This document shows, piece after piece, positions 20,141-38,009 of a stretch of DNA of 64,000 nt. The position numbers and the translations under genes were made by a program. The DNA is from Cellulomonas humilata. GTDB taxonomy: Bacteria > Actinomycetota > Actinomycetes > Actinomycetales > Cellulomonadaceae. Position 1 is the first letter of the stretch. The number at the start of each line of letters is the position of its first letter. The notes under the pieces were generated by a model that saw only the letters and a list, made by a program, of their open reading frames with translations, ran no database searches and was not told the origin of the DNA. The stretch spans positions 62,001-126,000 of the forward strand of contig NZ_JAUSVB010000002.1 of the NCBI RefSeq assembly GCF_030814415.1, read 5' to 3'.

Positions 20141-20160
20141 CATACCGCGCGGTCGGTATG
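20141..20160. promoter_or_regulatory. TetR-type operator, site A
   Basis: CATACCG-N6-CGGTATG palindrome with perfect 7-bp arms, in the 97-base gap between the divergent hydrolase and ADH genes. It matches sites B, C and D at 26136, 34850 and 37990. Confidence 0.75.
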
Positions 20161-20192
20161 CCTGACAACGAGGTCAACTCCTGGAGGTACGC

Positions 20193-21311
20193 GTGCAGAT
20201 CGTCGGCGCGGTGCTCGAACGCTCCGGTGCGCCCGCGCCGTTCGCGCAGTCGAGGCCGTTCACCGTCGGACCCCTGGAGCTGGACTCTCCCGGGCCGGGC
20301 GAGGTGCTGGTCCGCATCGAGGCCGCCGGGGTGTGCCACTCCGACCTGTCCGTCGTCGACGGCAACCGCGTCCGGCCGACGCCGATGCTGCTGGGCCACG
20401 AGGCCGCGGGGATCGTCGAGGCTCTGGGCGACGGCGTCGACGACCTGGCCGCGGGCGACCGCGTCGTCATGACCTTCCTGCCCCGCTGCGGCGACTGTCC
20501 TGAGTGCGCGACCGACGGGCGGCTGCCGTGCCGGGTGGGCAGCGCAGCGAACGGCCTCGGACTGCTCGTCGGCGACCACCGACGGCTCTCCCGGGACGGC
20601 GAGCCCGTCCACCACCACCTCGGCGTCTCCGCGTTCGCCAGCCACGCGGTGGTCAGCCGCACGTCCGTCGTCCGGGTCGACGCCGACGTCCCGCCGGAGG
20701 TCGCGGCGCTGCTCGGCTGCGCGGTGCTCACCGGCGGCGGCGCGGTGGTCAACGCCGGCCGTCCGCGGGAGGGTGACACGGTGATGGTCGTGGGGCTCGG
20801 AGGCGTGGGCATGGCCGCCCTGCTCGTCGCCGTCGCGCTCGGGTTCGAGGTCATCGGCGTCGACGCGCTCTCGGACAAGCTCGACGCCGCGCGGTCGAAC
20901 GGCGCGTCCGCCGTCTTCACGCCCGCCGCCCTGGCGGTGGCCGGCGTCCGAGCCCCGGTCGTCATCGAGGCGGCCGGCAACGCCCGCGCGTTCGAGACCG
21001 CGCTCGCGGCCACCTCGCCGGGCGGCACGACGGTGACGGTCGGCCTGCCGGCGCCGGACGCCCGCGCGTCGGTCAGCCCGCTGACGCTGACCGCCGAGGC
21101 GCGGACCGTCGTCGGCAGCTACCTGGGGTCCGCCGTCCCGGCGCGCGACATCCCGCTCTACGTCGACCTGTGGCGCTCCGGGCGGCTGCCGCTCGAGCGC
21201 CTGGTCTCTTCCCGCATCACCCTGCACGACCTCGACGTCGCCATGGACCGCCTCGCGGCCGGTGGCGAGCTCCGCCAGCTGATCGTTCTCGACGAAAGGA
21301 CTCACCTGTGA
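20193..21311 (+). CDS. Zinc-dependent alcohol dehydrogenase
   Basis: MDR-family dehydrogenase of 372 residues. The catalytic zinc site has AAGVCHSDLSVVDG and LLGHEAAGIVEALG. The structural zinc site is CGDCPECATDGRLPC, and the Rossmann fold has VMVVGLGGVGMAALL. It should oxidise an alcohol to an aldehyde or ketone (or reverse) with NAD(P), probably on a hydroxy-acid or alcohol substrate fed into the beta-oxidation steps next to it. GTG 20193 has the ribosome site CTGGAGGT. The stop overlaps the next GTG, so it heads the operon ADH-SDR-MaoC, under site A. Confidence 0.9.
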   Translation: MQIVGAVLERSGAPAPFAQSRPFTVGPLELDSPGPGEVLVRIEAAGVCHSDLSVVDGNRVRPTPMLLGHEAAGIVEALGDGVDDLAAGDRVVMTFLPRCGDCPECATDGRLPCRVGSAANGLGLLVGDHRRLSRDGEPVHHHLGVSAFASHAVVSRTSVVRVDADVPPEVAALLGCAVLTGGGAVVNAGRPREGDTVMVVGLGGVGMAALLVAVALGFEVIGVDALSDKLDAARSNGASAVFTPAALAVAGVRAPVVIEAAGNARAFETALAATSPGGTTVTVGLPAPDARASVSPLTLTAEARTVVGSYLGSAVPARDIPLYVDLWRSGRLPLERLVSSRITLHDLDVAMDRLAAGGELRQLIVLDERTHL

Positions 21312-22057
21312 CCAGAACTGCCCTCGTGACCGGAGCTGCTCGTGGCATCGGCGCCGCGACCGCCCTCCGGCTCGCCGCCGACGGGTTCCGCGTCGCCGTC
21401 CTCGACCTGCGCGAGCAGGACTGCGAGGAGACGGTCGACGCCATCCGCGCAGCCGGCGGGGACGCGCTCGCGCTCGATGCCGACGTGGGCGACACCGATG
21501 CCGCCGCCGCGGCCGTCGCGCGCGTCGTCGACGAGCTCGGAGCCCCCACCGTCCTGGTCAACAACGCCGGGATCCTGCGCGACAACCTGCTGTTCAAGAT
21601 GACCGAGAACGACTGGGACTCGGTGATGTCGGTGCACCTGCGCGGGGCGTTCCTCATGACCCGCGCGGTGCAGAAGCACCAGGTCGAGGCGGGCTGGGGG
21701 CGGATCGTCAACCTGTCGAGCACGTCCGCGCTGGGCAACCGCGGGCAGGCCAACTACGCGACGGCCAAGGCGGGCATCCAGGGCTTCACCAAGACGCTCG
21801 CGTTCGAGCTGGGCCGGTACGGGATCACCGCCAACGCGGTGGCGCCCGGGTTCATCGGGACCGACATGATCCGGCAGACGGCCGAGCGGATGCACATCAC
21901 GTACGAGCAGTTCGTCGAGGCGGCCGCCAAGGAGATCCCGGTCGGACGCATCGGGGTGCCCGAGGACATCGCGAACGCCGTGTCGTTCTTCTGCTCCGAG
22001 GCCGCGGGCTTCGTCAACGGGCAGGTCCTCTACGTGGCGGGCGGTCCGAAGGCATGA
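21308..22057 (+). CDS. SDR family oxidoreductase, 3-oxoacyl reductase (FabG)-like
   Basis: Short-chain dehydrogenase of 249 residues. It has the cofactor loop TGAARGIG (9-16), NNAGILRDNL, the catalytic Ser in NLSSTSALGN and the Tyr/Lys pair in NYATAKAG. The C-terminus is of FabG type (VPEDIANAVSFFCSEAAGFV). Such enzymes act on 3-oxoacyl-CoA/ACP or 3-hydroxyacyl-CoA. With the MaoC gene after it, it probably serves as the 3-hydroxyacyl-CoA dehydrogenase of the pathway. GTG 21308 overlaps the ADH stop. The next gene overlaps its stop in turn. Confidence 0.88.
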   Translation: MTRTALVTGAARGIGAATALRLAADGFRVAVLDLREQDCEETVDAIRAAGGDALALDADVGDTDAAAAAVARVVDELGAPTVLVNNAGILRDNLLFKMTENDWDSVMSVHLRGAFLMTRAVQKHQVEAGWGRIVNLSSTSALGNRGQANYATAKAGIQGFTKTLAFELGRYGITANAVAPGFIGTDMIRQTAERMHITYEQFVEAAAKEIPVGRIGVPEDIANAVSFFCSEAAGFVNGQVLYVAGGPKA

Positions 22058-22509
22058 TCGCGGTCGCGACGCCGGGCGGCCTGGTCGACGTGATCGGGCA
22101 GTCCGTCACCGCCGACGCGTGGTTCGCCATCGACCAGGACCGCATCGACGCGTTCGCCGACACCACCGACGACCACCAGTGGATCCACGTCGACCCGGTC
22201 AGGGCGGCGCAGGGCCCGTTCGGGGCGACCGTCGCGCACGGGTACCTGACCCTGTCCCTGATCCCGTCGCTGACCGACGGGCTGGTGGAGGTCGGCGGGA
22301 CGGGTCTGGTGGTCAACTACGGGCTCGACAAGGTCCGGTTCCTGCAGCCGGTGACGGCGGGCTCGCGGATCCGGGCGTCGTCGACGGTGACGTCCGCCGA
22401 GCCGACGGCGCAGGGCGTCCGCGCGACCTTCACGATCACGGTCGAGATCGAGGGCGCGACGAAGCCGGCGCTGATCGCGGAGACGGTCGTCCTCTACTTC
22501 GCAGCCTGA
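22054..22509 (+). CDS. MaoC family (R)-hydratase/dehydratase
   Basis: Hot-dog fold enzyme of 151 residues. It has the hydratase 2 pattern: the catalytic Asp/His region FADTTDDHQWIHVDPVRA, then GPFGATVAHGYLTLSL. Members hydrate enoyl-CoA to (R)-3-hydroxyacyl-CoA. It follows the FabG-like SDR by an ATGA overlap and should work with it. The operon ends at the 18-bp hairpin at 22512. It is probably not specific for one chain length, but this cannot be read from the sequence. Confidence 0.9.
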   Translation: MIAVATPGGLVDVIGQSVTADAWFAIDQDRIDAFADTTDDHQWIHVDPVRAAQGPFGATVAHGYLTLSLIPSLTDGLVEVGGTGLVVNYGLDKVRFLQPVTAGSRIRASSTVTSAEPTAQGVRATFTITVEIEGATKPALIAETVVLYFAA

Positions 22510-22511
22510 CC

Positions 22512-22561
22512 ACAACGTCCGAGGAAGTGAGCGCTGGAGCAGCCACTTCCTCGGACGTTGT
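22512..22561. terminator. Bidirectional terminator hairpin
   Basis: Perfect 18-bp inverted repeat (22512-22529 and 22544-22561) with a 14-base loop between the convergent MaoC and thiolase genes. The arm begins ACAACGTCCGAG, nearly the same as the hairpin at 13061 (ACGACGTCCGAG). Confidence 0.88.
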
Positions 22562-22566
22562 CGGTG

Positions 22567-23790
22567 CTACGAGACGCGCTCGACCACCATGGCCATGCCC
22601 TGGCCGCCGCCGACGCACATGGTCTCCAGGCCGAACGTCGCGTCGCGCACCGCCAGGCCGTGCAGGAGGGTGGTGGTCAGCCGGGCGCCGGTGCTCCCGA
22701 ACGGGTGGCCGACAGCGATCGCGCCGCCGTGCACGTTCAGCTTCTCGTGGTCGATCCCGAGCGCCCGCGCCGACGGCAGCACCTGCGCGGCGAACGCCTC
22801 GTTGAGCTCGACCAGGTCGATGTCGTCGATGGTGAGACCCGCGCGGGCCAGCGCCATCAGGGAGGCGTCGACCGGTCCGAGGCCCATGATCTCCGGCGAC
22901 AGCCCGCTGACCCCGGTGGAGACGATGCGGGCCAGCGGGGTGAGGCCGAGCTCGTCGACGATCCGGTCGCTGACCACGACGATCGCGGCGGCGCCGTCGT
23001 TGAGCGGGCAGCAGTTGCCGGCCGTGACCGTGCCGTCCGGCCGGAACACCGGGTTCAGACCGGCCAGCGACTCGACGGTGACACCGGCGCGGGGGCCGTC
23101 GTCGGCGGACACGACCGTGCCGTCCGCCAGGGTCACCGGGGTGATCTCGTCGGCCCAGAACCCGTTGGCCAGCGCCTTCTCGGCGCGGTTCTGGCTGAGC
23201 GCCGCGAACGTGTCCTGCTCGGCGCGCGTGGTGCCGGTGAGCGCGGCGACGTTCTCCGCCGTCTGCCCCATCGCGATGTACGCGTCGGGGAGCAGGCCGG
23301 TCTCGCGCGGGTCCACCCACGCCTCGGACGTCGCGGCGCGCTCGGCGGTCCGGGCGACGGCGTCGCCGAACCGCGGGTTCTCGAGCGAGGCCCCCGGGAT
23401 GTAGTCCGAGTTCCCGATCGCGGACCGGCTGACGCACTCGACGCCCGCGGAGACGAACACGTCGCCCTCGCCGGCCTTGATCGCGTGGAACGCCATCCGG
23501 GTGGTCTGCAGCGACGACGAGCAGTACCGGTTGACGGTCGTGCCGGGCACGCCGTCGAGCCCCAGGAGGACCGAGACGATCCGGGCCATGTTCATGCCCT
23601 GCTCGCCGCCGGGCATGCCGCAGCCGAGCAGCAGGTCCTCGACGCGACCGGGGTCGAGCTCGGGGACCTGCGCGAGGGCCGCGCGGACCATGGACGCGGC
23701 GAGGTCATCCGGCCTGACCGATGCGAGTGAGCCCTTGAACGCGCGGCCGATCGGGGAGCGGGCGGTCGCGACGATGTACGCCTCGGCCAT
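22567..23790 (-). CDS. Acetyl-CoA acetyltransferase / thiolase family
   Basis: Thiolase of 407 residues. The acylated Cys90 lies in TTVNRYCSSSLQT; the His is in GGAIAVGHPFGSTGARL and the second Cys in ETMCVGGGQG. It cleaves 3-oxoacyl-CoA with CoA to give acetyl-CoA (or propionyl-CoA) and a shortened acyl-CoA in the cytosol. ATG 23790 is one base into the stop of the acyl-CoA dehydrogenase upstream (TGATG), so the two are read together. The promoter is at 24984-25084, shared with the divergent QsdR-like regulator. Confidence 0.93.
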   Translation of the reverse strand: MAEAYIVATARSPIGRAFKGSLASVRPDDLAASMVRAALAQVPELDPGRVEDLLLGCGMPGGEQGMNMARIVSVLLGLDGVPGTTVNRYCSSSLQTTRMAFHAIKAGEGDVFVSAGVECVSRSAIGNSDYIPGASLENPRFGDAVARTAERAATSEAWVDPRETGLLPDAYIAMGQTAENVAALTGTTRAEQDTFAALSQNRAEKALANGFWADEITPVTLADGTVVSADDGPRAGVTVESLAGLNPVFRPDGTVTAGNCCPLNDGAAAIVVVSDRIVDELGLTPLARIVSTGVSGLSPEIMGLGPVDASLMALARAGLTIDDIDLVELNEAFAAQVLPSARALGIDHEKLNVHGGAIAVGHPFGSTGARLTTTLLHGLAVRDATFGLETMCVGGGQGMAMVVERVS

Positions 23791-24983
23791 CAGACGAACG
23801 CCGCGATGCCGGTGATGGCACGCCCCACGATGAGGTTGTTCATGTCGTGGGTCCCTTCGAACGAGTAGACGGCCTCGGCGTCGGCCATGTAGCGGGCGAC
23901 GCCGTGGTCGAGCTGGATGCCGTTGCCGCCGAGCGTCTCGCGGCAGAGGGCCACGGTCTCGCGCATGACGGACGTCGTGTACGCCTTGGCGAGTGCCGAG
24001 TGCTGGTCGAGCTGGCGGTCCTCGTCCTGGAGCTGGGAGACCCGCACGCACATCGCGATGCTCGCGGTGATGTTGCCGAGACACCGGGCGAGCCGGTCCT
24101 GGACCAGCTGGAACGACGCGATCGGCTTGCCGAACTGCTCGCGCTCGAGCGCGTACCTGACGGTCGCCTCGTAGGCGCCGACGGAGACCCCGACCGCCTG
24201 CCACGCGACCTCCGCGCGCGTCAGCCGCAGCACGATGGCGACGTCCTTGAACGAGTGGATGTTGGGCAGCCGGTCCGACTCGTCCACGACCACCCCGTCG
24301 AGCAGGATGTCGGCGTTCTGCACGGTGCGCAGCGCCTGCTTGCGCTCGATCTTCGTCGCGGTGAACCCGGGGGTGCCGCGGCGGACCAGGAAGCCCTTGA
24401 CCTGGTCGTCGGCGGTGTCGCGCGCCCAGATGACGACGACGTCCGCGAACGTGGCGTTCCCGATCCAGCGCTTGGCGCCGTTGAGCACCCACGTGTCGCC
24501 GGTGCGGTGCGCGGTCGTGCGCAGGCCGCGGGCGGTGTCGGAGCCGGAGAGCGGCTCGGTGAGCCCGAAGCCGCCGATCACCTCGCCCCTCGCCATCGGC
24601 GGGAGCCACTCGGCGCGCTGCTCGGGGGAGCCGCCGACGCCGATCGCGCCCATCGTCAGCCCGTTCTGGACGCCGACGAACGTCGCGAAGCCGGGGTCGA
24701 CCCGCGCGAGCTCGAGCGCGACCCACCCGCGGTACAGCGCGGTGTTCTCGAAGCGCTTGGTCTCTGGCCACACCGGCCCGAGCATGCCGAGCCGCCCGAC
24801 CTCGGGGATGAGGTGCATCGGGAACTCGGCGCGGTCCCAGTAGTCGTCGGCGATGGGACGCAGCTCCCGCTCCAGGAACTCCCGGATCTCCATGACGTGC
24901 GCGTTCTCGTCCGGGGTGAGGAGGCCCTGGAACGAGTAGAAGTCGCTCGTCAGGAGGGCATGGGACAGGTCAGTTTGAGTCAC
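23790..24983 (-). CDS. Acyl-CoA dehydrogenase, glutaryl-CoA-dehydrogenase-like
   Basis: FAD enzyme of about 397 residues. It shows the family signature GGFGLTEPLSGSDTARGLRT, the helix LEREQFGKPIASFQLVQDRL and, near the end, ETLGGNGIQLDHGVARYM then YSFEGTHDMNNLIVGRAIT, whose Glu is the usual catalytic base in the GCDH branch. It should introduce the 2,3-double bond into an acyl-CoA and pass electrons to ETF. GTG 24983 is chosen because GGAG lies 7 bases upstream; a GTG at 25019 would add 12 residues. It is in operon with the thiolase and opposite the QsdR-like gene. Confidence 0.9.
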   Translation of the reverse strand: MTQTDLSHALLTSDFYSFQGLLTPDENAHVMEIREFLERELRPIADDYWDRAEFPMHLIPEVGRLGMLGPVWPETKRFENTALYRGWVALELARVDPGFATFVGVQNGLTMGAIGVGGSPEQRAEWLPPMARGEVIGGFGLTEPLSGSDTARGLRTTAHRTGDTWVLNGAKRWIGNATFADVVVIWARDTADDQVKGFLVRRGTPGFTATKIERKQALRTVQNADILLDGVVVDESDRLPNIHSFKDVAIVLRLTRAEVAWQAVGVSVGAYEATVRYALEREQFGKPIASFQLVQDRLARCLGNITASIAMCVRVSQLQDEDRQLDQHSALAKAYTTSVMRETVALCRETLGGNGIQLDHGVARYMADAEAVYSFEGTHDMNNLIVGRAITGIAAFV

Positions 24984-25028
24984 GTCATGGCTCCGCTCAT
25001 GGATCGGCTCTGATCTCACCCTCGAGTG

Positions 25029-25052
25029 TGCATCATTTTCCGAGATGTTGCA
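25029..25052. promoter_or_regulatory. Palindrome between QsdR-like gene and acyl-CoA dehydrogenase
   Basis: TGCATCATTT and GAGATGTTGCA form imperfect inverted arms (TGCAnCATnT, 8 of 10 matching) in the divergent gap. It differs from the other island operators, so the QsdR-like regulator may bind here. Confidence 0.45.
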
Positions 25053-25084
25053 TAGCCCCCGGCGAGGAGGAGTAGGTTGCCGCC

Positions 25085-25726
25085 ATGTCGAACCTTGGCG
25101 TGATCGGAGACGGGCTCGGCCGCATCGGCACCCGCGTCGCTCCCTCGTGGCTGTCCCAACGGCTGGAGGACGGTGAGCACGCGGACGCGGTGCGGGCGTT
25201 CGTCGCCGCCCGCGCGACCTTCATCGAGGGTGCGCGCATCGACATGGGCCGTCTGGCGAGCAAGCTCGGCGTCGACCGGACCTCGCTGTTCCGCTGGGTG
25301 GGCAACCGCGACGCGCTGCTCTCCGAGGTCCTCTGGTCGCTCGCCGTCCCCACGCTCGAGCAGGCCGAGGCCGCGACGCGCGACACCGAGGGAGCCGCAC
25401 GGGTGTCCGCGGTCCTCACGCACTTCGCCGGCGACCTCATCACCGCCGACTACTTCCGCGGCTTCCTCCAGCGCGAGCCGGCCCGGGCCCTGCGCCTGCT
25501 GACGACGAAGGAGAGCGAGATCCAGCGGCGGTACGTCGCGGTCGTCGAGGCCCTCGTGCGCCAGGAGCTGGGCGAGCAGCCGTTCGGTCGCGGGGTGACC
25601 GCGCACGACCTCGCCTACCTGCTGGTCCGCATCTCGGAGTCGTTCACCTACGCGGACCTGATCAACGGCGACCGGCCCAGCGCGGAGCGAGCGCGCGCGG
25701 CCTTCGAGCTGGTGCTGCGGCCATGA
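25085..25726 (+). CDS. QsdR family TetR-type regulator
   Basis: Protein of 213 residues. The N-terminal HTH is at about 35-85 (FVAARATFIEGARIDMGRLA, SKLGVDRTSLFRWVGNRDAL). The C-terminus has the QsdR-like pattern (FLQREPARALRLLTTKESEIQ). In the QsdR group the ligands are thought to be acyl-lactones or acyl-CoA-type molecules. It is divergent from the acyl-CoA dehydrogenase-thiolase operon and coupled by ATGA to the thioesterase, so it should regulate both. GAGGAG precedes the ATG. It is distinct from the classical TetR at 36621. Confidence 0.82.
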   Translation: MSNLGVIGDGLGRIGTRVAPSWLSQRLEDGEHADAVRAFVAARATFIEGARIDMGRLASKLGVDRTSLFRWVGNRDALLSEVLWSLAVPTLEQAEAATRDTEGAARVSAVLTHFAGDLITADYFRGFLQREPARALRLLTTKESEIQRRYVAVVEALVRQELGEQPFGRGVTAHDLAYLLVRISESFTYADLINGDRPSAERARAAFELVLRP

Positions 25727-26127
25727 CGTACCCGCACATGGCCCCCTTCTCGACCCGCTGGAACGACAACGACGTCTACGGCCACCTCAACAACACCGTC
25801 TACTACGAGGCGATGGACACGACGATCAACGCCTGGCTCATGGGGTCCGCCGGCCTGGACCCGACCGGCGGTGGTCCGATCGGCGTCTGCGTGTCGTCGT
25901 CGTGCGAGTTCAAGGCCTCCGCCGCGTTCCCCGAGCCGCTGGAGGTGGGTCTGCGGGCCGGTCGGGTGGGGACGTCGAGCGTGACGTGGGAGCTCGGCAT
26001 CCTGCGCGAGGGCGAGCTGCTGGCCGAGGGCCGGTTCGTGCACGTCTTCGTCGACGACGAGACCCGCCGGCCCGTACCGATCCCCGACGGGATCCGTGCC
26101 GCGATCGAGCGCGACCTGGTCGTCTGA
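25723..26127 (+). CDS. Acyl-CoA thioesterase, 4-hydroxybenzoyl-CoA type
   Basis: Hot-dog enzyme of 134 residues. The pattern STRWNDNDVYGHLNNTVYYEAMD holds the Asp and the helix N-terminus used by this thioesterase family, and the rest is the usual five-stranded sheet (TSSVTWELGILREGELLAEG). It should hydrolyse acyl-CoA to acid and CoA, relieving a trapped CoA pool in the pathway. It overlaps the regulator stop by 4 bases. Site B lies 8 bases after its end, before the next operon. Confidence 0.85.
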   Translation: MTYPHMAPFSTRWNDNDVYGHLNNTVYYEAMDTTINAWLMGSAGLDPTGGGPIGVCVSSSCEFKASAAFPEPLEVGLRAGRVGTSSVTWELGILREGELLAEGRFVHVFVDDETRRPVPIPDGIRAAIERDLVV

Positions 26128-26135
26128 TCCGGTAG

Positions 26136-26155
26136 CATACCGACCGGGCGGTATG
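26136..26155. promoter_or_regulatory. TetR-type operator, site B
   Basis: CATACCG-ACCGGG-CGGTATG palindrome, the best match of the four sites, 30 bases upstream of the APH-like kinase start. It should control the kinase-ACAD-ligase operon. Confidence 0.78.
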
Positions 26156-26185: not shown

Positions 26186-27247
26186 ATGACCCGACGCATG
26201 CCGGACCCACCCGGGCTCGACGTCGCGCAGCTGGAGGCGTACCTGCGCCGTGAGCACCCCGGCGTGGTGGGCGACGGCACGTTGTCCGCGCGGGTCATCG
26301 CGGGCGGGCGCAGCAACCTCACGTACCGGGTCGACGGGGGCCTGCGGCCGCTCGTGGTCCGGCGGCCGCCGCTCGGGCACGTGCAGACCACCGCGCACGA
26401 CATGGCCCGCGAGCACCGGGTCATCTCGGCACTGCAGGGATCTCGCGTGCCGGTCCCGCCGGTCGTCGCCCTGGTCGACGACCCGACGGCCGGTACGGGC
26501 GGCGTCTTCTACGTCATGGCCCTCGTCGAGGGCACCGTGCTCGCCCACCCGTCGCAGAACACCACGTACACCGCCGACGAGCTGCGCGCCGTGAGCCTCG
26601 AGCTGGCCACCCTGCTCGCCGAGCTCCACGCGATCGATCCCGACCAGGTCGGGCTGACGGACCTGGGCCGGGCCGACGGGTATCTCGACCGCCAGCTGCG
26701 CCGCTGGCGCACCCAGCTGGACGGCTCGCGCTCGCGGCCGGTGCCGGTCCTCGACGACCTGCAGGACCGACTCGCCGAGCGCGTCCCGACCACCCGGCGC
26801 AGCAGCATCGTGCACGGCGACTACCGCCTGGACAACGTGCTGGTGGGAAGGTCGACCAGCAGCAGCCCGCGCATCACCGCGATCCTCGACTGGGAGATGG
26901 CGACGCTCGGCGACTCGGCCGTCGACCTGGGCATGCTCGGCCTCTACTGGCACATCCGTCGGATCGAGGGCGGAGGCAGCGTCGCGCCCAGCGCGGTCGA
27001 CCCGGCCGCCGGCTACCCGGACTTCGACGAGCTGGTCGACGCCTACAGCGCCCGCCTGGGCAGCAGCGTCCCGGAGCTCGGCTGGTACCGGGCGTTCGCC
27101 GCGTACAAGCTCGCCGTGATCCTCGAGGGCATCCACTTCCGGTTCCTCGGCGGCGACACGGTGGGGGAGGGCTTCGACAAGATCGGCGCCCTCGTCACGC
27201 CGCTGGCCGACGAGGGTCTCGCGCAGCTGGCGGGGGTGGTGCGCTGA
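26186..27247 (+). CDS. APH-family phosphotransferase, ACAD10/11 N-domain-like
   Basis: Kinase-like protein of 353 residues. The P-loop region has GGRSNLTYRVDG, the catalytic loop is SSIVHGDYRLDNVLV and the metal-binding DWEMATLGD follows. Members of this branch form one part of human ACAD10/11 and stand alone as LvaA in the levulinate pathway of Pseudomonas, where they phosphorylate the 4-hydroxy group of 4-hydroxyacyl-CoA. The next gene is an ACAD10/11-like dehydrogenase, the usual partner, which supports this job. ATG 26186 has GAGAGGTGG before it. Its stop overlaps the start of that gene. It is not an antibiotic-resistance enzyme by context. Confidence 0.85.
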   Translation: MTRRMPDPPGLDVAQLEAYLRREHPGVVGDGTLSARVIAGGRSNLTYRVDGGLRPLVVRRPPLGHVQTTAHDMAREHRVISALQGSRVPVPPVVALVDDPTAGTGGVFYVMALVEGTVLAHPSQNTTYTADELRAVSLELATLLAELHAIDPDQVGLTDLGRADGYLDRQLRRWRTQLDGSRSRPVPVLDDLQDRLAERVPTTRRSSIVHGDYRLDNVLVGRSTSSSPRITAILDWEMATLGDSAVDLGMLGLYWHIRRIEGGGSVAPSAVDPAAGYPDFDELVDAYSARLGSSVPELGWYRAFAAYKLAVILEGIHFRFLGGDTVGEGFDKIGALVTPLADEGLAQLAGVVR

Positions 27248-30032: not shown

Positions 30033-30042
30033 CAGGCACAGA

Positions 30043-31357: not shown

Positions 31358-31362
31358 CGGTG

Positions 31363-32466
31363 TCACCTCTGTTCTTCGGTAGGGACGAGGACCTTGCGCG
31401 GTGCGGGTTCTTCGGTGGGGCGGGGACCGTCTCCGGTGGGACGACGGCTGGTGCGGCGACGCCGGGCGACGAGCGCCCCGTGCAGGCCGTGCGGGGCGAC
31501 CGCCATCACGGTGATGAGCAGGAGCCCGAAGACGAGGACCGCGAGGTTCCCGTCGAGTCGCTGGGCGGCGTCGGCCGGGAGGCTCGACGTGAGCCGGCCG
31601 ATGAGCCAGGGAAGGAGCACGATGACCACGGAGCCGAGCGCGGCGCCGAGGATGCTGCCCAGACCGCCGATGACGACCGCGACCACGAGCAGCAGGGAGA
31701 ACCCGACGGTGTAGGCGCCGGGGCTGACGGCCTGCGCGACGAAGCACAGGACGCCGCCGCCGACCCCCGCCGCGACCGAGCTGGCGGTGAACGCGAGGAC
31801 CTTCACGCGGCCGGCCGGGATGCCGCTCAGCCGTGCGGCCACCTCGTCGTCGCGGACCGCGAGCATCCGCAGCCCGAACCGCCCACCGCGCAGCACGGTC
31901 AGACCGGTCACGACGGCCGCCGTGACGACCACGGCCACCATCGCCTGCCACTGCTCGAGCGCGACGACCCGGCGCAGGGCGTCGGGCACCCCCTCGAACG
32001 GGATCTGCACCCCCTGGTCGCCGTGCAGCGCGGTCGACCAGGTGGAGGCCACCGCCGGCAGGGCGACCACGACGGCGAGCGTGAGACCCGCCAGGTACGG
32101 CCCGGACAGCCGCGCGGCGGCCAGCCCCAGGAGCAGGCCGACGACCGCGCTCGCGAGCGCCCCGACCAGCAGAGCGAGTACGAAGGCCGGGATACCGCCG
32201 AACGGCAGCGCGTTGGTGGTCAGGGCGAACCCGTACCCGCCGACCGCCATGAGCGCGGCGTGGCCGAGCGAGAGCTGACCGGTTGCGCCGACGAGCACGG
32301 TGAGCCCCGCGGTCGCGCACAGGTACGCCGCGACGAGAGCGAGCTGGTAGTTGCGGAACGGGTCGAGCGCGAACGTGCCGCCCAGGGCGACGACGGTCCA
32401 TCCCGCCGCGACCAGCAGCGTGCGCAGGAGCGGTCGCTGTCCGGGAAGCCTCTGCCGGCCGTTCAT
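31363..32466 (-). CDS. Branched-chain-type ABC permease (LivM)
   Basis: Membrane protein of 367 residues with about ten helices. The LivM-type pattern is YLCATAGLTVLVGATGQLSLGHAALMAVGG, AARLSGPYLAGLTLAVVVAL and, near the C-terminus, the loop that meets the ATPase (AARLSGIPAGRVKVLAFTAS). A long basic, Pro-rich tail ends the protein (RRRTSRRPTGDGPRPTEE), which is unusual in length. ATG 32466 overlaps the LivH stop (ATGA). It pairs with LivH to form the channel. Confidence 0.9.
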   Translation of the reverse strand: MNGRQRLPGQRPLLRTLLVAAGWTVVALGGTFALDPFRNYQLALVAAYLCATAGLTVLVGATGQLSLGHAALMAVGGYGFALTTNALPFGGIPAFVLALLVGALASAVVGLLLGLAAARLSGPYLAGLTLAVVVALPAVASTWSTALHGDQGVQIPFEGVPDALRRVVALEQWQAMVAVVVTAAVVTGLTVLRGGRFGLRMLAVRDDEVAARLSGIPAGRVKVLAFTASSVAAGVGGGVLCFVAQAVSPGAYTVGFSLLLVVAVVIGGLGSILGAALGSVVIVLLPWLIGRLTSSLPADAAQRLDGNLAVLVFGLLLITVMAVAPHGLHGALVARRRRTSRRPTGDGPRPTEEPAPRKVLVPTEEQR

Positions 32467-33341
32467 GCGCGCCTCGCCTCCGCCGCCGCGAACAGGCCTG
32501 CCGGTCGCAGGAGGAGCACCAGCACCAGCAGGACGAGCACGGCGATCGGCACCAGGCCCGCGCCGAGGTAGCCGGTCACCAGGCTCATCGCGATGCCGAC
32601 GACCACCCCGCCGACCAGTGCGCCGACGGGCGAGTCGAGCCCGCCGACCACGGCGACGGTGAAGCCGAGCACGAACAGCGAGTCGGTCGCGTGCGGGTTC
32701 AGGCCGAGGCTCGTCGGCACCAGGAGCAGCGCCGCGAGGGACCCGACGACGCTCGACAGGACCCACCCGACGGTGACGGTGCGCGACACCCGGACGCCGA
32801 GCAGGCGGGACACCTCGGGGGCGAACGCAGCCGCGCGCATCTGCAGGCCCAGTGAGGTCCACCGGAACAGGACGGCCAGCGCGCCCATCACCACCACGGC
32901 GACGACCAGCACGAACAGGTCGTAGGGGGAGAGCAGCGGCACCCCGCCGACGACGATCGCGCGGTCGTCGAACGGCACGCGCATCGGCCGGTAGTCGGGC
33001 CCGAAGATGATCCCGAGCGCCGACTGCAGCACCATCACCAGCCCGATGGCCAGGATGACGCCGGACAGCGGCGAGGCCGGCGACGCGAACCGCATGACCC
33101 CGCGCTCGACGGCGAACCCGAGCAGCCCGCCCGCGAGCAGCGCGGCGAGCAGACCCAGCCAGTAGCTGCCGGTCAGCGACGTCACCTCGAACGCGACGTA
33201 CGTGCTGACCACCGCCATGGCGCCCTGCGCGAAGTTGACGACCCGGGCCCCGCGCCAGATCAGGACGAGCGCGAGGGCGAACAGCGCGAGGACGGCACCG
33301 CGCGCCAGGCCGGTGCCCAGGAGGAAGACGAGTCGGTCCAT
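32463..33341 (-). CDS. Branched-chain-type ABC permease (LivH)
   Basis: Membrane protein of 292 residues with about eight helices. The N-terminal pattern (LARGAVLALFALALVLIWRG, then VVNFAQGAMAVVSTYVAF) is that of LivH, as are LGLQMRAAAFAPEVSRLLGV and the loop SPVGALVGGVVVG. With LivM it forms the translocation path, driven by the two ATPases upstream. It touches its neighbours: one base shared with LivF and 4 with LivM, so the genes are read as one message. Confidence 0.9.
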   Translation of the reverse strand: MDRLVFLLGTGLARGAVLALFALALVLIWRGARVVNFAQGAMAVVSTYVAFEVTSLTGSYWLGLLAALLAGGLLGFAVERGVMRFASPASPLSGVILAIGLVMVLQSALGIIFGPDYRPMRVPFDDRAIVVGGVPLLSPYDLFVLVVAVVVMGALAVLFRWTSLGLQMRAAAFAPEVSRLLGVRVSRTVTVGWVLSSVVGSLAALLLVPTSLGLNPHATDSLFVLGFTVAVVGGLDSPVGALVGGVVVGIAMSLVTGYLGAGLVPIAVLVLLVLVLLLRPAGLFAAAEARRA

Positions 33342-34051
33342 CAGAACCCCAGGTACGCGTGGCGGAGGCGGTCGTCGGCGGCGAGCTCGTGGGCGGGCCG
33401 GGACGCCACGACCTCACCGAGCCCGAGGACGACGCCGTGGTCGGCGACGGACAGCGCACCGACGACGTTCTGCTCGGCGAGCAGGACGGTCAGGCCGGTG
33501 CGGTCGGCCAGGCTGCGCAGGACCCCCATGATCTGGGCGACCACGCGCGGGGCGAGCCCGAGCGACGGCTCGTCGAGCAGCAGGACCGAGGGTCGAGCGA
33601 CGAGCGCCCGGCCGAGCGCGAGCATCTGCCGCTCGCCGCCGGAGAGCTGGTGACCCGCGTTGTTCCTGCGCCGGGCCAGCGGCTCGAACAGCGCGTAGAC
33701 CTCGTCGACGGCCGCGCGGCGGTCCGGCCCCCGCCAGAGGCCGCCGAGCCGCAGGTTCTCGTCGACCGTCAGCTCCGCGACGACGCCGCGGCCCTCGGGG
33801 ATGTGGGCGAGCCCGCGCCGGACCCGGTCCTCGACGCTCACTCCGGCGAGGTCCTGCCCGTCGAGGCGGATGCTCCCGCGGGTGAGGGGGACCAGGGCGG
33901 ACAGGGTCCGCAGGAGGGTGGTCTTGCCCGCGCCGTTGGCGCCGACGAGGGCGACGATGCTGCCCGCCGGCACGTCGAGTTCGACGTCGCGCAGGACCGG
34001 CGCGCCGCCGTAGCCGACGGTCAGTCCCCGCACCTCCAGGAGCGCGCTCAC
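33341..34051 (-). CDS. Branched-chain-type ABC ATPase (LivF)
   Basis: ATPase of 236 residues. It has Walker A (GANGAGKTT), the Q-loop, the signature LSGGERQMLALGRAL, Walker B (SVLLLDEPSLGLAP) and the H-loop region. It is shorter than the LivG gene and holds the LivF-type C-terminus (HELAADDRLRHAYLGF). It works as one of the two ATPases of the importer. Its start is 7 bases from the LivG stop. Confidence 0.92.
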   Translation of the reverse strand: MSALLEVRGLTVGYGGAPVLRDVELDVPAGSIVALVGANGAGKTTLLRTLSALVPLTRGSIRLDGQDLAGVSVEDRVRRGLAHIPEGRGVVAELTVDENLRLGGLWRGPDRRAAVDEVYALFEPLARRRNNAGHQLSGGERQMLALGRALVARPSVLLLDEPSLGLAPRVVAQIMGVLRSLADRTGLTVLLAEQNVVGALSVADHGVVLGLGEVVASRPAHELAADDRLRHAYLGF

Positions 34052-34058
34052 AGGATCG

Positions 34059-34811
34059 TCACCTCGATACCTCTATTCCTAGGTATGCCTCGTCGACCGC
34101 CGGGTCCCCGGCGACCTCGTCCGGCGTGCCGGACGCGATCACCCGCCCGAAGTCGAGGACGACGACGCGGTCGCACACGCTCATGACGAAGTCGACGTGG
34201 TGCTCCACCAGCAGGACGGCGCAGCCGGTGGCGGCGGTGCGCCGGATCAGGTCGCCGAGCGCGGCGATGTCCTCGGAGCCCAGGCCGCCGGCGGGCTCGT
34301 CGAGCAGGAGCAGGCTCGGCTGCGCGACGAGCGCCCGGGCGAGCGCGACCTTCTTCTGCTCCGGATAGGGCAGGTCGCCCACCGGGCGGTCGGCGTGACC
34401 GGCGAGGTCGAGCGCGTCGAGCTGGCGCTGCGCGTCCGTGCCGGGGTCGTGGGCACCGAGACGCCCGGCGAGCACGTTCTCGCGGACGGTCAGGCCGCGG
34501 AACAGGCCCAGGCCCTGGAGCGTCCGGGCGACGCCGCGGGCGGACAGTCGCGTCGGGTCGGGGGGCAGCGGGACGCCGTCGACGGTGATCGTGCCTGCGC
34601 TGGGGCGGACCAGCCCGCACACGGCGTTGAACAGGGTCGTCTTCCCGGCACCGTTCGGGCCGATGAGGCCGACGACCTCACCCTCGCGCACCTCCAGGCT
34701 CACGTCGTCGAGGGCGCTCAGCCCCCCGAAGCGCACGCTCAGGCCGTGGATGGACAACCGGGGACTGCGTGGCTCACCGCCCGTTCGGACGGGCGTCATC
34801 TGTGCAGACAT
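34059..34811 (-). CDS. Branched-chain-type ABC ATPase (LivG)
   Basis: ATPase of 250 residues, first gene of the importer operon. It has Walker A (GPNGAGKTT), the Walker B region (PSLLLLDEPAGGLGSEDIA) and the His switch (VLLVEHHVDFVMSV). The LSGGQ-like signature is degenerate (DLPYPEQKKVALARAL), a feature common in LivG proteins. ATG 34811 is chosen because AGAGGTG lies 5 bases upstream; a longer open frame to 34874 is not likely. Site C lies 39 bases upstream of the start, so the operon should be under TetR control. Confidence 0.92.
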   Translation of the reverse strand: MSAQMTPVRTGGEPRSPRLSIHGLSVRFGGLSALDDVSLEVREGEVVGLIGPNGAGKTTLFNAVCGLVRPSAGTITVDGVPLPPDPTRLSARGVARTLQGLGLFRGLTVRENVLAGRLGAHDPGTDAQRQLDALDLAGHADRPVGDLPYPEQKKVALARALVAQPSLLLLDEPAGGLGSEDIAALGDLIRRTAATGCAVLLVEHHVDFVMSVCDRVVVLDFGRVIASGTPDEVAGDPAVDEAYLGIEVSR

Positions 34812-34849
34812 CGGCACCTCTTTGTGTCGGTGAGGACGAAAGTACAACA

Positions 34850-34869
34850 GAAACCGACCGGACGGTATG
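34850..34869. promoter_or_regulatory. TetR-type operator, site C
   Basis: GAAACCGACCGGACGGTATG: the right arm CGGTATG is perfect and the left arm is changed at two bases. It lies just upstream of the importer operon and shares ACCGACCGG with site B. Confidence 0.7.
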
Positions 34870-34910
34870 CTCACGAGGACACGGTTCGATCACGCCCGAG
34901 AAGCACAGGA

Positions 34911-35642
34911 TCAGGAGTGCGGGACGCCGGCGATCATGCCGCCGTCGACCACCAGCTCGGTGCCCGTCGTGTAGGCGGAGTCGTCGCTCGCGAGGAAGAC
35001 GACCGTGCCCGCGACGTCCGCCGGCAGCGCCGGCCGACCCAGGGGGATCGGCACCGCGGTCGGGTCCATTCGCGAGGTCATCGTCGTCTGCACGAAGCCC
35101 GGGTGCACGGAGTTGACCCGGATCCCGTCCGGACCCAGCTCGACCGCGAGCGACTTGGTCAGGCCGCGCACGCCGAACTTCGAGGCCACGTAGCCGTGCA
35201 GGTGGGAGCCGCCGAGCATGCCCTCGACCGACGAGATGTTGACGATGGACCCGCGGCCGGCGGTCTTCATCGTCGGGACGACCGCCTGCACGCCCAGGAA
35301 CACTCCCGTGAGGTTGACCGCGATGACCGCGTCCCACTTGGCCAGCGGATAGTGGTCGATCGGCCCGGCGTTCGCGATGCCCGCGTTGTTGACCAGCACG
35401 TCGACCGTGCCGAACGCCGCGCGGGTGGCCTCGACCGTGGCGGCCCAGCTCTCGGGCGACGTCACGTCCAGGTGGGTGGCCAGCGCGCGGTCACCCAGCT
35501 CGGCGACGAGCCGACCGGCGTCGTCGTCGAGCAGGTCCGCGATCACGACGCTCGCGCCCTCGGCGTGCAGCGCGCGGGCGAATGCCTCACCGAGCCCGCG
35601 CGCGCCGCCGCTGACGATCGCGACCCGCCCGTCGAGCCTCAT
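34911..35642 (-). CDS. SDR family oxidoreductase (classical)
   Basis: Short-chain dehydrogenase of 243 residues. It has the cofactor loop SGGARGLGEA, VNNAGIANAGPI, the catalytic Ser in NISSVEGMLGG, the Tyr/Lys pair in YVASKFGVRG and the FabG-like end (DVAGTVVFLASDDSAYTTG). It should oxidise a hydroxyacyl or alcohol intermediate with NAD(P). Its ATG overlaps the stop of the quinone-reductase-like gene. Site C lies after it, so this operon probably ends here. Confidence 0.88.
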   Translation of the reverse strand: MRLDGRVAIVSGGARGLGEAFARALHAEGASVVIADLLDDDAGRLVAELGDRALATHLDVTSPESWAATVEATRAAFGTVDVLVNNAGIANAGPIDHYPLAKWDAVIAVNLTGVFLGVQAVVPTMKTAGRGSIVNISSVEGMLGGSHLHGYVASKFGVRGLTKSLAVELGPDGIRVNSVHPGFVQTTMTSRMDPTAVPIPLGRPALPADVAGTVVFLASDDSAYTTGTELVVDGGMIAGVPHS

Positions 35643-36616
35643 GAGACGCGCACCACGAGACGCCCGGTCGTGGCGCCGTCCGCCAGGCGCTGCACGGCCC
35701 GCGCGGCGTCCTCGAACGCGACCACCTCACCGACCACCGGCCGGACCTGTCCGGCGTCGACCAGCCGGGTCAGCTCGACGTGCGCGGCGTCGACCAGCTC
35801 CGGTCGGCGCTGCGCGTAGAGCGCCCAGTGCAGCCCGAGGACGCCGTAGTTCTTCACCAGCGCGTGCCCTGCGTTGACGGCCTGGATGGTCCCGCCCGCG
35901 AAGCCGACCACGACGATCCGCCCCTCGAACGCGATGCACTTGGTGGACTGCTCGAACGCGGTGCCGCCGACGGGGTCGAACACCACGTCGACGCCCGTAC
36001 CGCCGGTCTCGGCCTTGACCACGGCGACGACGTCCTGCGTCGACCGGTCGACGACGACGTCCGCGCCGGCCTTCCGCGCGACCTCCGCCTTCGCGGCGCT
36101 GCCGACCACCCCGATCACCCGGGCTCCCGCGGCGGCGCCCAGCTGGACCGCGGCGGTCCCGACCCCGCCCGCGGCGGCGTGCACCAGGAGCGTCTCGCCC
36201 GGCTGCAGGACCGCGCGCCGGTGCAGCCCGAACCACGCGGTCTGGTACCCGATCGTCAGGGCGGCGGCCTCGGCGTTTTCGAGCGCGCTGGGCGCCGGGA
36301 AGACCTCGCGCCCGTCGAGCACGGCCAGCTCCGACAGGACGCCGATCCGCGACCCGACCACGCGGTCGCCGAGCGCCGCGCGCGTGACGCCGTCGCCGAC
36401 GCCGACCACCTCGCCGCACAGCTCGATCCCGGGGGAGAAGGGCAGCGGCGGCCGCACCTGGTACTCCCCCCGGGCCAGCAGGACGTCGGGGAAGTTCACC
36501 GCGACCGTGCGCACGCGGACGAGCACCTGCCCCGGGCCGGGCGTCGGGTCCGGGACCTCAGCGATCTGGAGGACGTCGGTGGGCTCGCCGTACCGCACCA
36601 CCTGCCAGGCGCGCAC
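35639..36616 (-). CDS. NADPH:quinone oxidoreductase family protein (MDR)
   Basis: Zinc-free MDR enzyme of 325 residues. The pattern VNFPDVLLARGEYQVRPPLP and GIELCGEVVGVGDGV is of the QOR2 branch; the cofactor loop is HAAAGGVGTAAVQLG. No zinc ligands are present. Such enzymes reduce quinones or the double bond of an enoyl compound with NADPH. In this island an enoyl-CoA or enone reductase job is possible. The GTG start lies 4 bases after the TetR stop, so it is in one operon with the regulator. Confidence 0.88.
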   Translation of the reverse strand: MRAWQVVRYGEPTDVLQIAEVPDPTPGPGQVLVRVRTVAVNFPDVLLARGEYQVRPPLPFSPGIELCGEVVGVGDGVTRAALGDRVVGSRIGVLSELAVLDGREVFPAPSALENAEAAALTIGYQTAWFGLHRRAVLQPGETLLVHAAAGGVGTAAVQLGAAAGARVIGVVGSAAKAEVARKAGADVVVDRSTQDVVAVVKAETGGTGVDVVFDPVGGTAFEQSTKCIAFEGRIVVVGFAGGTIQAVNAGHALVKNYGVLGLHWALYAQRRPELVDAAHVELTRLVDAGQVRPVVGEVVAFEDAARAVQRLADGATTGRLVVRVS

Positions 36617-36620
36617 CCGC

Positions 36621-37196
36621 TCAGGCCTTGATCGCGACGAGGAAGAGGTCGGTCAGCTGCTGCGCGAGGAGCGCCTTGTCCTCGGGGCCCTCGGGGGAGT
36701 ACCAGTTCGACAGGTAGTGCACGTCGGAGAAGAAGTGGGCGACCAGGACCGCGCGCGGGATGTCCGTCCGGTAGAGGCCCTCCTCCTGGCCGCGCTCGAT
36801 GAGGCTCGCGAACACGTCGTGGTACTGCCGGCGGCGGCGGGTGACCTCCTTCTGGCGCGGCTCCGAGAGCATGTGCACGCTGCGGAAGAACACGGTTCCC
36901 TCGGGGAGGAAGTCGATCGAGGTCTCGATGACGTCGACGCACACGTCGTGCAGCGTCTGCGCGGTGGGGGTGCCGCGGCCGACGATCTCCTCGAGGTGGC
37001 TGGTCTGCAGCGAGAGCATCCGCTCGTACACCGAGAAGAGGAGGTCGTCCTTCGACTCGAAGTAGTGGTACATCGCGCCCTTGGTGACGCCGGCTGCTTC
37101 GACGATCTGCTGCACCGAGGTGTTGGCGTACCCCTGGGTGGAGAACAGGTCGACGGCAGCGCGCGTGATGTCGTCGACGACGCTGGAGGTTGCCAT
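36621..37196 (-). CDS. TetR family regulator of the catabolic island
   Basis: Regulator of 191 residues. The HTH spans about 5-55 (AAVDLFSTQGYANTSVQQIV, AAGVTKGAMYHYFESKDDLL), the pattern of TetR proteins whose ligands are often acyl-CoA compounds. The C-terminus is a helical ligand-binding domain with aromatic residues (VHYLSNWYSPEG). It lies in an operon after the SDR at 37223, whose promoter carries site D, so it should repress its own operon and the other sites A-C. ATG 37196 has GAGAGG upstream. Confidence 0.87.
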   Translation of the reverse strand: MATSSVVDDITRAAVDLFSTQGYANTSVQQIVEAAGVTKGAMYHYFESKDDLLFSVYERMLSLQTSHLEEIVGRGTPTAQTLHDVCVDVIETSIDFLPEGTVFFRSVHMLSEPRQKEVTRRRRQYHDVFASLIERGQEEGLYRTDIPRAVLVAHFFSDVHYLSNWYSPEGPEDKALLAQQLTDLFLVAIKA

Positions 37197-37222
37197 GGGT
37201 GCCTCTCGTTCTTCTGCTGGAG

Positions 37223-37975
37223 CTAGCCGACGGCGACGGCGCTGGCGCCGCCGTCGATGGTGAGCGTATGACCGGTGATCCACGCGGCGTCGTCGGAGAG
37301 CAGGAACGCGACGGGTCCCGCGACGTCCTCGGGCTCGCCGATGCGCCCGAGGGGGTAGGCCGAGGCGAGCGCGGCCTCGCGGTCGCCCTCGTAGAGCGCC
37401 TGCGCGAGCCGCGTGCGGACCACTGCGGGGGCGACCGCGTTGACGCGGATGCCGGGGGCCAGCTCGACCGCGAGCTGCTGCGTGAGGTTGAGGAGCGCGG
37501 CCTTGGACACGCCGTAGAACGCGACGCCTGGGCTGGCCGACAGGCCCGCCACCGAGGCGGTGTTGACGATCGAGCGGCTCAGGCCGGCGTCGACGGCGGA
37601 CCGGGTCCAGTCGAGGGCCGCGACCACGTTGACCTCGAGGATCTTGCGGACGACCGAGCTCTCGATCTCGAGCGCGGGGCCGTACGCGGGGTTGATGCCG
37701 GCGTTGTTGACCAGGTGGTCCAGGCGGCCGAACCGCTCGCTGATCTGCGCGAACACGTCCGCGCGGTGGTCCGCGTCGTCGGCCTTGCCCGCGAGGCCGA
37801 GCGCATGGCCCGCGGCGATCGCGTCGAGCCGCTCGACGGCGGCCGTGAGCGACTCCGGCTTGCGTCCGGTGATGACGACCGTGGCACCCTCGGAGACCAG
37901 CCGTTCCGCGACGGCCAGGCCGATCCCGCGGCTCGCCCCGGTGATCAGGGCGACTCTGCCCTCGAACCTGCGCAT
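37223..37975 (-). CDS. SDR family oxidoreductase
   Basis: Short-chain dehydrogenase of 250 residues. It has TGASRGIGLAVAERL, NNAGINPAYGPALE, NTASVAGLSASPGVAFYGVSK (catalytic Ser, Tyr and Lys) and the C-terminal LLSDDAAWITGHTLTIDGG. It should act on a hydroxyacyl or alcohol intermediate. It is the first gene of the operon SDR-TetR-QOR-SDR. Site D lies 15 bases upstream of its ATG, where a bound repressor would block the promoter and ribosome site. Confidence 0.88.
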   Translation of the reverse strand: MRRFEGRVALITGASRGIGLAVAERLVSEGATVVITGRKPESLTAAVERLDAIAAGHALGLAGKADDADHRADVFAQISERFGRLDHLVNNAGINPAYGPALEIESSVVRKILEVNVVAALDWTRSAVDAGLSRSIVNTASVAGLSASPGVAFYGVSKAALLNLTQQLAVELAPGIRVNAVAPAVVRTRLAQALYEGDREAALASAYPLGRIGEPEDVAGPVAFLLSDDAAWITGHTLTIDGGASAVAVG

Positions 37976-37989
37976 CCTGCACCCTTCTC

Positions 37990-38009
37990 GATACCGACTG
38001 TTCGGTATG
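37990..38009. promoter_or_regulatory. TetR-type operator, site D
   Basis: GATACCG-N6-CGGTATG palindrome directly upstream of the SDR-TetR operon. It matches sites A-C, so it is the probable autoregulatory site. Confidence 0.75.

Follow-up and report, generated by a model that had tools for sequence, protein, structure and literature searches.

A TetR-type regulator and its candidate operators in Cellulomonas humilata: a predicted regulon for a 4-hydroxyacyl-CoA module and a PETase-family cutinase

A locus in Cellulomonas humilata (assembly GCF_030814415.1, contig NZ_JAUSVB010000002.1) holds four copies of the palindrome ATACCG-N6-CGGTAT among genes for uptake and breakdown, which raises the questions of whether these copies are operators of a single regulator, which of the two TetR-type regulators encoded there would read them and on what substrate the genes would act. 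We analysed the locus within a window of 64,000 nucleotides (positions 62,001 to 126,000 of the contig), to which coordinates refer unless another contig is named. Genes and sites follow in the order serine hydrolase (minus strand), operator O1, alcohol dehydrogenase (ADH), the short-chain dehydrogenase (SDR) SDRa and MaoC-type hydratase (plus), thiolase and the acyl-CoA dehydrogenase (ACAD) ACAD2 (minus), TetR2 and thioesterase (plus), operator O2, APH-type kinase, ACAD1 and acyl-coenzyme A (acyl-CoA) ligase (plus), the substrate-binding protein, LivM, LivH, LivF and LivG of an ABC importer (minus), operator O3, and SDRb, a quinone-oxidoreductase-like protein (QOR), TetR1 and SDRc (minus), with operator O4 (Table 1). 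We propose, with a probability of about 0.75, that TetR1 is an autoregulated repressor of the PfmR/MbdR type that would act at five promoters, would be released by a CoA ester and would govern a hydroxy-acid pathway, with a second circuit in the same locus under TetR2.

A scan of the window for the core ATACCG-N6-CGGTAT at up to two mismatches returned exactly four matches, at 20142, 26137, 34851 and 37991, a number never reached in 100 dinucleotide shuffles of the window (mean 0.65 matches, largest 3). These positions are starts of the 18-bp core, one base inside the 20-mers at 20141, 26136, 34850 and 37990 that the first-pass annotation had described as sharing it; the description stands with one correction, in that three sites are exact and the one at 34851 reads AAACCG...CGGTAT, with one mismatch. 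Within the genome (12 contigs, 4,637,248 bases) there are three exact copies of the motif, none of them outside this locus; at up to one mismatch the count is five, four of them in this locus, against one match for a reversed control. Frequent copies at unrelated places, which the first-pass annotation had said would refute its claim, were thus not found. One single-mismatch match, C3:1056, sits inside a long reading frame of the minus strand. When up to two mismatches are allowed there are 43 matches against 17 for the control, a level that is largely noise, and these were dropped as further targets save for C1:181242, which leads to the cutinase gene discussed below. The full palindrome ATACCGACCGGTCGGTAT at up to three mismatches is found at five places, namely the four window sites and G000:C1:181242 (control 1), so that the genome scan proposed in the first-pass annotation added one site, outside the window.

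All four window sites lie 15-39 bp ahead of a start codon, a spacing that fits repression by blocking of the polymerase. A promoter and terminator scan of the region gave one weak sigma70-like promoter match (minus strand, 20168-20139), with O1 inside its 18-nt spacer, and terminators at no more than chance level. The gene order agrees with the earlier claim that every site directly precedes an operon, and with the placing of the regulator's gene in an operon with its own site, O4 standing ahead of SDRc-TetR1-QOR-SDRb. The claim needs qualifying at 20141, where the site lies between a divergent pair: the serine hydrolase is the least sure member of the regulon because 8 of 12 relatives showed no homologue of it next to the ADH site.

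We then considered conservation. TetR1 homologues (E <= 1e-20) were found in 19 of 118 genomes, C. humilata included, and the exact motif in 20; both are present in 18 genomes, the motif only in 2, TetR1 only in 1 and neither in 97 (Fisher 4.5e-18), although a weakness of these counts, as of the promoter counts that follow, is that the genomes share ancestry and are not independent. The two motif-only cases (G007:C63:42289 and G085:C162:11874) are taken as chance and are not explained; the reversed control pattern occurs in 1 of the 118 genomes. The locus was read in 16 of the 19 TetR1 genomes, own included, with the close relatives G021, G054 and G059 left out, scoring, for each gene with an alignment that begins by residue 60, the best 18-mer in the preceding 900 bp or so; this placed the ADH of G046 and G064 (too short) and the remnants in G069 (residue-60 rule) outside the counts. 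All 56 promoters read (4 own and 52 in relatives) keep the site at up to two mismatches, and it precedes the first aligned codon by 13-159 bp. Counted with the C. humilata promoter in each case, the site is present at up to one mismatch in 12/12 ADH promoters, exactly in 15/15 kinase promoters, in the same one-mismatch form (...GGTTT) in 14/14 LivG promoters and at up to two mismatches in 15/15 SDRc promoters. In six diverged genomes the identity of the 12-base core was 0.89-1.00 as against 0.28-0.46 for the 40-bp flanks, in a comparison that was anchored on the chosen site and ungapped and is therefore biased towards the site, with too low a figure for the flanks.

When named genomes were searched with the TetR1 alignment, at least 586 loci were obtained, of which the best 80 are considered here. 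Most loci of at least 59% TetR identity, from Cellulosimicrobium, Leifsonia, Microbacterium, Isoptericola, Promicromonospora, Nesterenkonia and others, keep both the operons and the sites. The TetR of the Streptomyces and Nocardiopsis loci (43-52% identity) lies beside ACAD1 and usually the kinase, and the site is present in 24 of 25 and 8 of 9 loci with TetR1 homologues, respectively. Altogether 73 of the 80 loci carry the site at up to three mismatches; the reversed control gave none, and 30 permuted palindromes gave 0.57 on average (maximum 6). The site falls within 700 bp upstream of the kinase in 32 of 45 kinase-bearing loci (up to four mismatches). Specificity in the genome, conservation of the sites, co-occurrence with TetR1 and the survival of the sites next to TetR homologues from other genera therefore support the view that the ATACCG sites form one regulon, to which TetR1 is predicted to bind. 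As a separate observation, the G069 locus (L079, L080) is a decayed cluster in which the TetR1 match is full-length and the site, ACACCGCGCGGTCGGTGT (ACACCG...CGGTGT), has changed symmetrically. This locus, with TetR1 kept and TetR2 not found, was considered as a clean natural experiment and rejected, being a remnant with incomplete pieces of ADH, thiolase and SDRc.

The repeats could in principle be a recombination remnant or chance and not operators at all. Nothing was found in favour of this, and promoter position, a core conserved against diverged flanks and co-occurrence speak against it, making it very improbable. A closer question is whether TetR2 reads the ATACCG sites in place of TetR1, or together with it. 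TetR2 is encoded 410 bp from O2 and occurs in 19 of the 118 genomes, of which 17 have the exact motif (3 with the motif only, 2 with TetR2 only and 96 with neither), an agreement nearly as good as that of TetR1. This counts against our assignment, in that co-occurrence alone cannot choose the regulator when TetR2 is co-inherited almost equally. Nevertheless, the ATACCG site was not found in the divergent promoter of ACAD2 and TetR2, where a different inverted repeat, TGCAWC-N12-GTTGCA, is present in 16 of 16 aligned genomes. Two of these, G084 and G101, carry TetR2 with its palindrome, yet TetR1 gave no hit in them and the stretch examined contains no ATACCG site. Further, no more than 4 of the 80 loci (stretches of at most about 20 kb) yielded TetR2, none of them from Streptomyces or Nocardiopsis, though nearly all loci of those two genera have the site. 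Control of these sites by TetR2 is thus improbable, and its own palindrome, conserved also where TetR1 gives no hit, led us to take TetR1 as the probable reader of the ATACCG sites and TetR2 as that of the second palindrome. The longer form TGCAWCAT-N8-ATGWTGCA has a single match in the genome when up to two mismatches are allowed, and so has its reversed control, while 3 of 100 window shuffles reach one match at three mismatches.

We propose, from this palindrome, that ACAD2-thiolase and TetR2-thioesterase make up a second circuit under TetR2, so that the locus would hold two. The first-pass annotation had seen one circuit over 18 kb; this is upheld for the four operons that share the site, and not for thiolase-ACAD2 and TetR2-thioesterase with their unrelated palindrome. 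The best match of TetR2 in the PDB is 4za6 (E 5.5e-11; next match 0.0016), named QsdR, a repressor that senses a lactone ring and in Rhodococcus erythropolis governs the qsd lactonase operon (PMC6262395, in the available excerpt).

TetR1 itself matches TetR_N (67 bits) and TetR_C_24 (77 bits) and has the TetR fold with an N-terminal helix-turn-helix. Its AlphaFold model (pLDDT, a per-residue confidence score, 95) is nearest in fold to DarR, KstR2 and PfmR, with AibR and FadR also close; the model superimposes on the PfmR structure 3vpr with a template-modelling (TM) score of 0.89, at 29% sequence identity (E 3e-19). The MbdR structure 4uds is also a match of TetR1. The AibR and FadR structures are listed with CoA esters and that of DarR with cyclic nucleotides, and KstR2 responds to a CoA ester. 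By analogy, a CoA ester is the likely ligand of TetR1.

The fifth site, AAACCGACCGGTCGGTTT (G000:C1:181242-181259), lies on another contig, 79 bp ahead of a gene at 181339-182220 (L110:9243-10221). The product is a PETase-family polyester hydrolase (PDB 8eu0, 419 bits; GHSMGG in the translation), hereafter the cutinase, that reaches 494.6 bits against the NCBIfam model BdeA (bis(hydroxyethyl) terephthalate hydrolase), under the cutoff of 520; judged by this score it is a relative of BdeA and is not filed as BdeA. Its leader, judged from the translation, looks like a signal peptide, and the enzyme may thus be secreted. The exact 18-mer of this site is present in 7 of the 118 genomes, all with TetR1 (reversed control 0), while cutinase homologues (E <= 1e-40) occur in 22. 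In genomes with TetR1, 12 of 13 cutinase promoters have a site 62-116 bp ahead of the match start, under limits chosen after seeing the data: seven are exact and the others differ from the nearer of two palindrome forms by 2, 3, 5, 5 and 5 mismatches, with identical letters in G013 and G070. The count is 9 of 13 at up to three mismatches. In genomes lacking TetR1, none of the nine readable cutinase genes (8 genomes) has a match under six mismatches, the gene of G101 having been left out where the contig ends 68 bp or less before its start. The difference is significant at either level (12/13 vs 0/9, Fisher 2.0e-5; 9/13 vs 0/9, 1.4e-3), and the fifth operator probably puts the cutinase under TetR1.

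The kinase-ACAD-ligase operon indicates what such a regulon might do. ACAD1 matches ACAD11 entries of the PDB at 450-461 bits and 4hr3, an uncharacterised ACAD, at 427, with the next match at 137 (among the best 60 of 76). It carries the HCMR motif with an arginine eight residues upstream (QARLGPGRIHHCMRSLGM), and its catalytic aspartate, in RLADGPDEVHL, aligns to that of ACAD11. The kinase, encoded beside this HCMR-type ACAD, has the catalytic HGDxxxxN as HGDYRLDN and scores 154 bits to APH and 138 bits to the ACAD11 kinase domain. Residues of both kinds have been tied to the handling of 4-phosphoacyl-CoA in ACAD10/11 and LvaC (PMC12440821), and in the published pathway a kinase phosphorylates 4-hydroxyacyl-CoA and an ACAD eliminates the phosphate to give 2-enoyl-CoA (PMC12440821, PMC11342911). 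The lva operon of Pseudomonas putida and mammalian ACAD10/ACAD11 likewise combine an APH-type kinase with an HCMR-type ACAD, lva also having a ligase (PMC12440821, PMC11342911, in the available excerpts). Because the ACAD1 and kinase signatures match this LvaA/LvaC and ACAD10/11 pathway, the regulon very probably includes a 4-hydroxyacyl-CoA step. The lva regulator LvaR, unlike TetR1, is not known to be a TetR, and no Liv importer or cutinase is known with the lva operon.

This kind of system is already known. MbdR of Azoarcus sp. CIB (operator ATACN10GTAT, inducer 3-methylbenzoyl-CoA) is likewise a TetR repressor at several promoters over an ABC importer, a CoA ligase and pathway genes; it differs in serving an anaerobic aromatic pathway, and a kinase-ACAD pair is not mentioned in the available excerpt (PMC4424350). 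PaaR of Burkholderia cenocepacia is a TetR repressor with an inverted repeat, ACCGACCGGTCGGT, required for control, and differs in its targets, the phenylacetic acid genes (PMC2770484). The 18-bp class ATAC-N10-GTAT / TACCGACCG is present in several window promoters including that of TetR1, and ATAC-N10-GTAT is fitted exactly by three of the four window sites and with one change by that at 34850. PfmR (TTHB023) of Thermus thermophilus HB8, with the predicted consensus TACCGACCGNTNGGTN (PMC7022988), is also a TetR repressor with palindromes ahead of its own gene, which we located at 13750 and 13896 of the Thermus stretch L194 (3 and 4 mismatches), and with similar kinds of enzyme in its operon. 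On pTT27 (L194:5044-13746) this encodes TetR, ACAD, serine hydrolase, SDR, MaoC, PaaI thioesterase, ligase, SDR, ACAD and phosphotransferase, and the order of the genes was used to equate them with TTHB023-TTHB014. TTHB015, which bears the HCMR motif, shares 40% identity with ACAD1, and in a pfmR mutant TTHB015 and TTHB014 were up by log2 1.68 and 1.86 (PMC7022988). PfmR differs in having one operon plus scattered genes, without a Liv importer in the Thermus stretch examined, and in being named after phenylacetic and fatty acid metabolism, with no cutinase target named in the available excerpt (PMC7022988). Given the HCMR-type ACAD and the phosphotransferase in its operon, PfmR may control a 4-hydroxyacyl-CoA module in Thermus. 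Beyond these, a Cytobacillus spongiae plasmid (Bacillota; L195) encodes SDR-ACAD-TetR-thioesterase-kinase-FabG-MaoC with ATACCAACCGGTTAGTAT 46 bp ahead of the SDR gene (3 mismatches), and a Terrarubrum plasmid (L196) has a TetR with a site at six mismatches, two of them in the inner 14. PA3973 of Pseudomonas, a TetR beside an ACAD and a thioesterase, was rejected as an analogue because its reported motif, SAAGRNMTGAACG, differs. Among the open-access matches listed in a literature check that was not full, no TetR control of a bacterial cutinase or of an LvaA/LvaC module was found, and this combination of targets was not met described there.

From the computed sites, their conservation and co-occurrence, the enzyme signatures, the second palindrome and the cutinase site we infer binding, repression, inducer, substrate and cutinase secretion as follows. 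A TetR1 dimer would bind palindromes like ATACCGACCGGTCGGTAT in five promoters, that of the cutinase gene and four in the window, among them the promoter of its own SDRc-TetR1-QOR-SDRb operon, and would repress all five until a CoA ester of the pathway released it. The ligase would convert hydroxy acids to CoA esters, the APH kinase would phosphorylate 4-hydroxyacyl-CoA and ACAD1 would remove the phosphate to yield 2-enoyl-CoA, in the manner of LvaA/LvaC and ACAD10/11, with MaoC, SDR and thiolase steps completing beta-oxidation; ACAD2-thiolase and the thioesterase would stand under the QsdR-like TetR2.

The cutinase together with the 4-hydroxyacyl-CoA module suggests plant-cutin hydroxy fatty acids as the substrate. 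Tomato cutin is about 80% 9(10),16-dihydroxyhexadecanoic acid (PMC10800985), and in Micrococcus luteus C10-oxygenated C18 acids derived from oleate give 4-keto/4-hydroxy C12 acids after three rounds of beta-oxidation (PMC7411827). By the same arithmetic, 10,16-dihydroxypalmitate would yield a 4-hydroxyacyl-CoA after three rounds; ordinary beta-oxidation stalls at this compound, and the kinase-ACAD pair would therefore be needed. We tentatively suggest, at somewhat less than even odds, a dedicated polyester (cutin) regulon in Cellulomonas and, more widely, that 4-hydroxyacyl-CoA modules of bacteria are commonly repressed by TetRs with ACCGACCGGTCGGT operators, PfmR included. A small soluble substrate (levulinate, 4-hydroxyvalerate or gamma-lactones) taken up by the Liv importer, with the cutinase as a side branch, is a serious rival, above all outside Cellulomonas, and likewise falls somewhat short of an even chance. 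Liv-type importers usually carry small solutes. The kinase-ACAD-ligase operon resembles LvaA-LvaC-LvaE, and both the importer and the kinase module persist in genera where the cutinase genes have no site; the answer of QsdR, the relative of TetR2, to a lactone ring points the same way (PMC6262395). Such a pathway would, however, have no need of the cutinase sites, which occur in several Cellulomonas lineages and only beside TetR1. The operator class shared with PaaR (PMC2770484) and MbdR (PMC4424350), and a best model for SDRb that is alicyclic-acid dehydrogenase ChcB1, though below cutoff, could instead point to an aromatic, alicyclic or ordinary fatty acid, as for PfmR, PaaR and MbdR, with the kinase-ACAD pair acting on some other substrate. 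This is unlikely, since no ring-hydroxylating or ring-opening enzyme was found among the operon genes named and ACAD1 bears the motif tied to 4-phosphoacyl-CoA.

Several further results weigh against the hydroxy-acid regulon of TetR1 as proposed. The identity between TetR1 and PfmR is only 29%, DarR and KstR2 are as close in fold to TetR1 as PfmR is, and KstR2 scores alike in sequence. No site was found in 7 of the 80 loci (L122, L148, L152, L159, L171, L174 and L175), and ACAD1 was not found in 25 of the 80 within the stretch examined. In Thermus, TTHB014 is 28% identical to the kinase and has no HGD[YF] pattern, and the serine hydrolase and thioesterase gave no alignment to those of the window at E 1e-5. 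Of five other plasmid loci that carry ACAD1 relatives, three (L197-L199) show no such operator. As to the cutinase, three of the 12 sites have five mismatches, and G052, with TetR1 and a cutinase 58% identical, has only a five-mismatch match 367 bp off, which was not counted. Of 38 genomes searched from other genera with TetR1 homologues, 21 have cutinase homologues and none of their 29 cutinase genes has the site; the cutinase link therefore seems special to Cellulomonas.

The features of the locus are collected in Table 1. Beside them, two similar short genes at 17232-17663 and 18440-18946, NUDIX-like by eye, flank a PIN/VapC-like gene at 17977-18402, these families being named from translation only.

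Table 1. Genes and candidate operators of the locus, in window coordinates
Feature	Coordinates	Strand	Basis and remarks
Serine hydrolase (beta-lactamase/esterase family)	18950..20095	-	PF00144; LipL-like below cutoff; start inferred; divergent from ADH
Operator O1	20141..20160	.	Exact core; between serine hydrolase (-) and ADH-SDR-MaoC (+)
ADH, zinc-type	20193..21311	+	Family match
SDRa, FabG-like	21308..22057	+	Family match; start inferred
MaoC-type hydratase	22054..22509	+	Family match
Thiolase, proposed second circuit	22567..23790	-	Family match; start inferred
ACAD2, without HCMR, proposed second circuit	23790..24983	-	Family match and motif check
Proposed TetR2 operator, palindrome TGCATCAT-N8-ATGTTGCA	25029..25052	.	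Between ACAD2 and TetR2
TetR2, QsdR-like	25085..25726	+	Pfam TetR_C_36; best PDB match 4za6
4HBT thioesterase	25723..26127	+	Family match
Operator O2	26136..26155	.	Exact; core end 31 bp ahead of kinase (APH) start
APH-type kinase, relative of LvaA / ACAD11 kinase domain	26186..27247	+	Pfam APH; PDB 9o56, 3dxp, ACAD11
ACAD1, LvaC / ACAD10-11 type	27247..28452	+	PDB ACAD11; RLGPGRIHHCMR and ADGPDEVH
Acyl-CoA ligase	28449..30032	+	Family match
Substrate-binding protein of ABC importer	30092..31357	-	Pfam Peripla_BP_6; start inferred
LivM-type permease	31351..32466	-	Named from translation; start approximate
LivH-type permease	32463..33341	-	Named from translation
LivF-type ABC ATPase	33341..34051	-	Named from translation
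LivG-type ABC ATPase	34059..34811	-	Named from translation, no family search
Operator O3	34850..34869	.	1 mismatch; core end 39 bp ahead of LivG
SDRb	34911..35642	-	Best model trans-4-hydroxycyclohexanecarboxylate dehydrogenase ChcB1, below cutoff (260.6 of 400)
QOR, quinone-oxidoreductase-like MDR	35639..36616	-	Family match
TetR1, proposed repressor	36621..37196	-	TetR_N and TetR_C_24; AlphaFold model
SDRc	37223..37975	-	Family match
Operator O4	37990..38009	.	Exact; core end 15 bp ahead of SDRc-TetR1-QOR-SDRb

If the proposal is true, a regulator and an operator would be named for the ACAD10/11-type 4-hydroxyacyl-CoA module in Actinomycetes, and the PfmR regulon of Thermus would be suggested to handle 4-hydroxy acids. 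PETase-family cutinases are better known through plastics work than for their natural control, and the proposal would provide a directly testable inducer for a member of this family.

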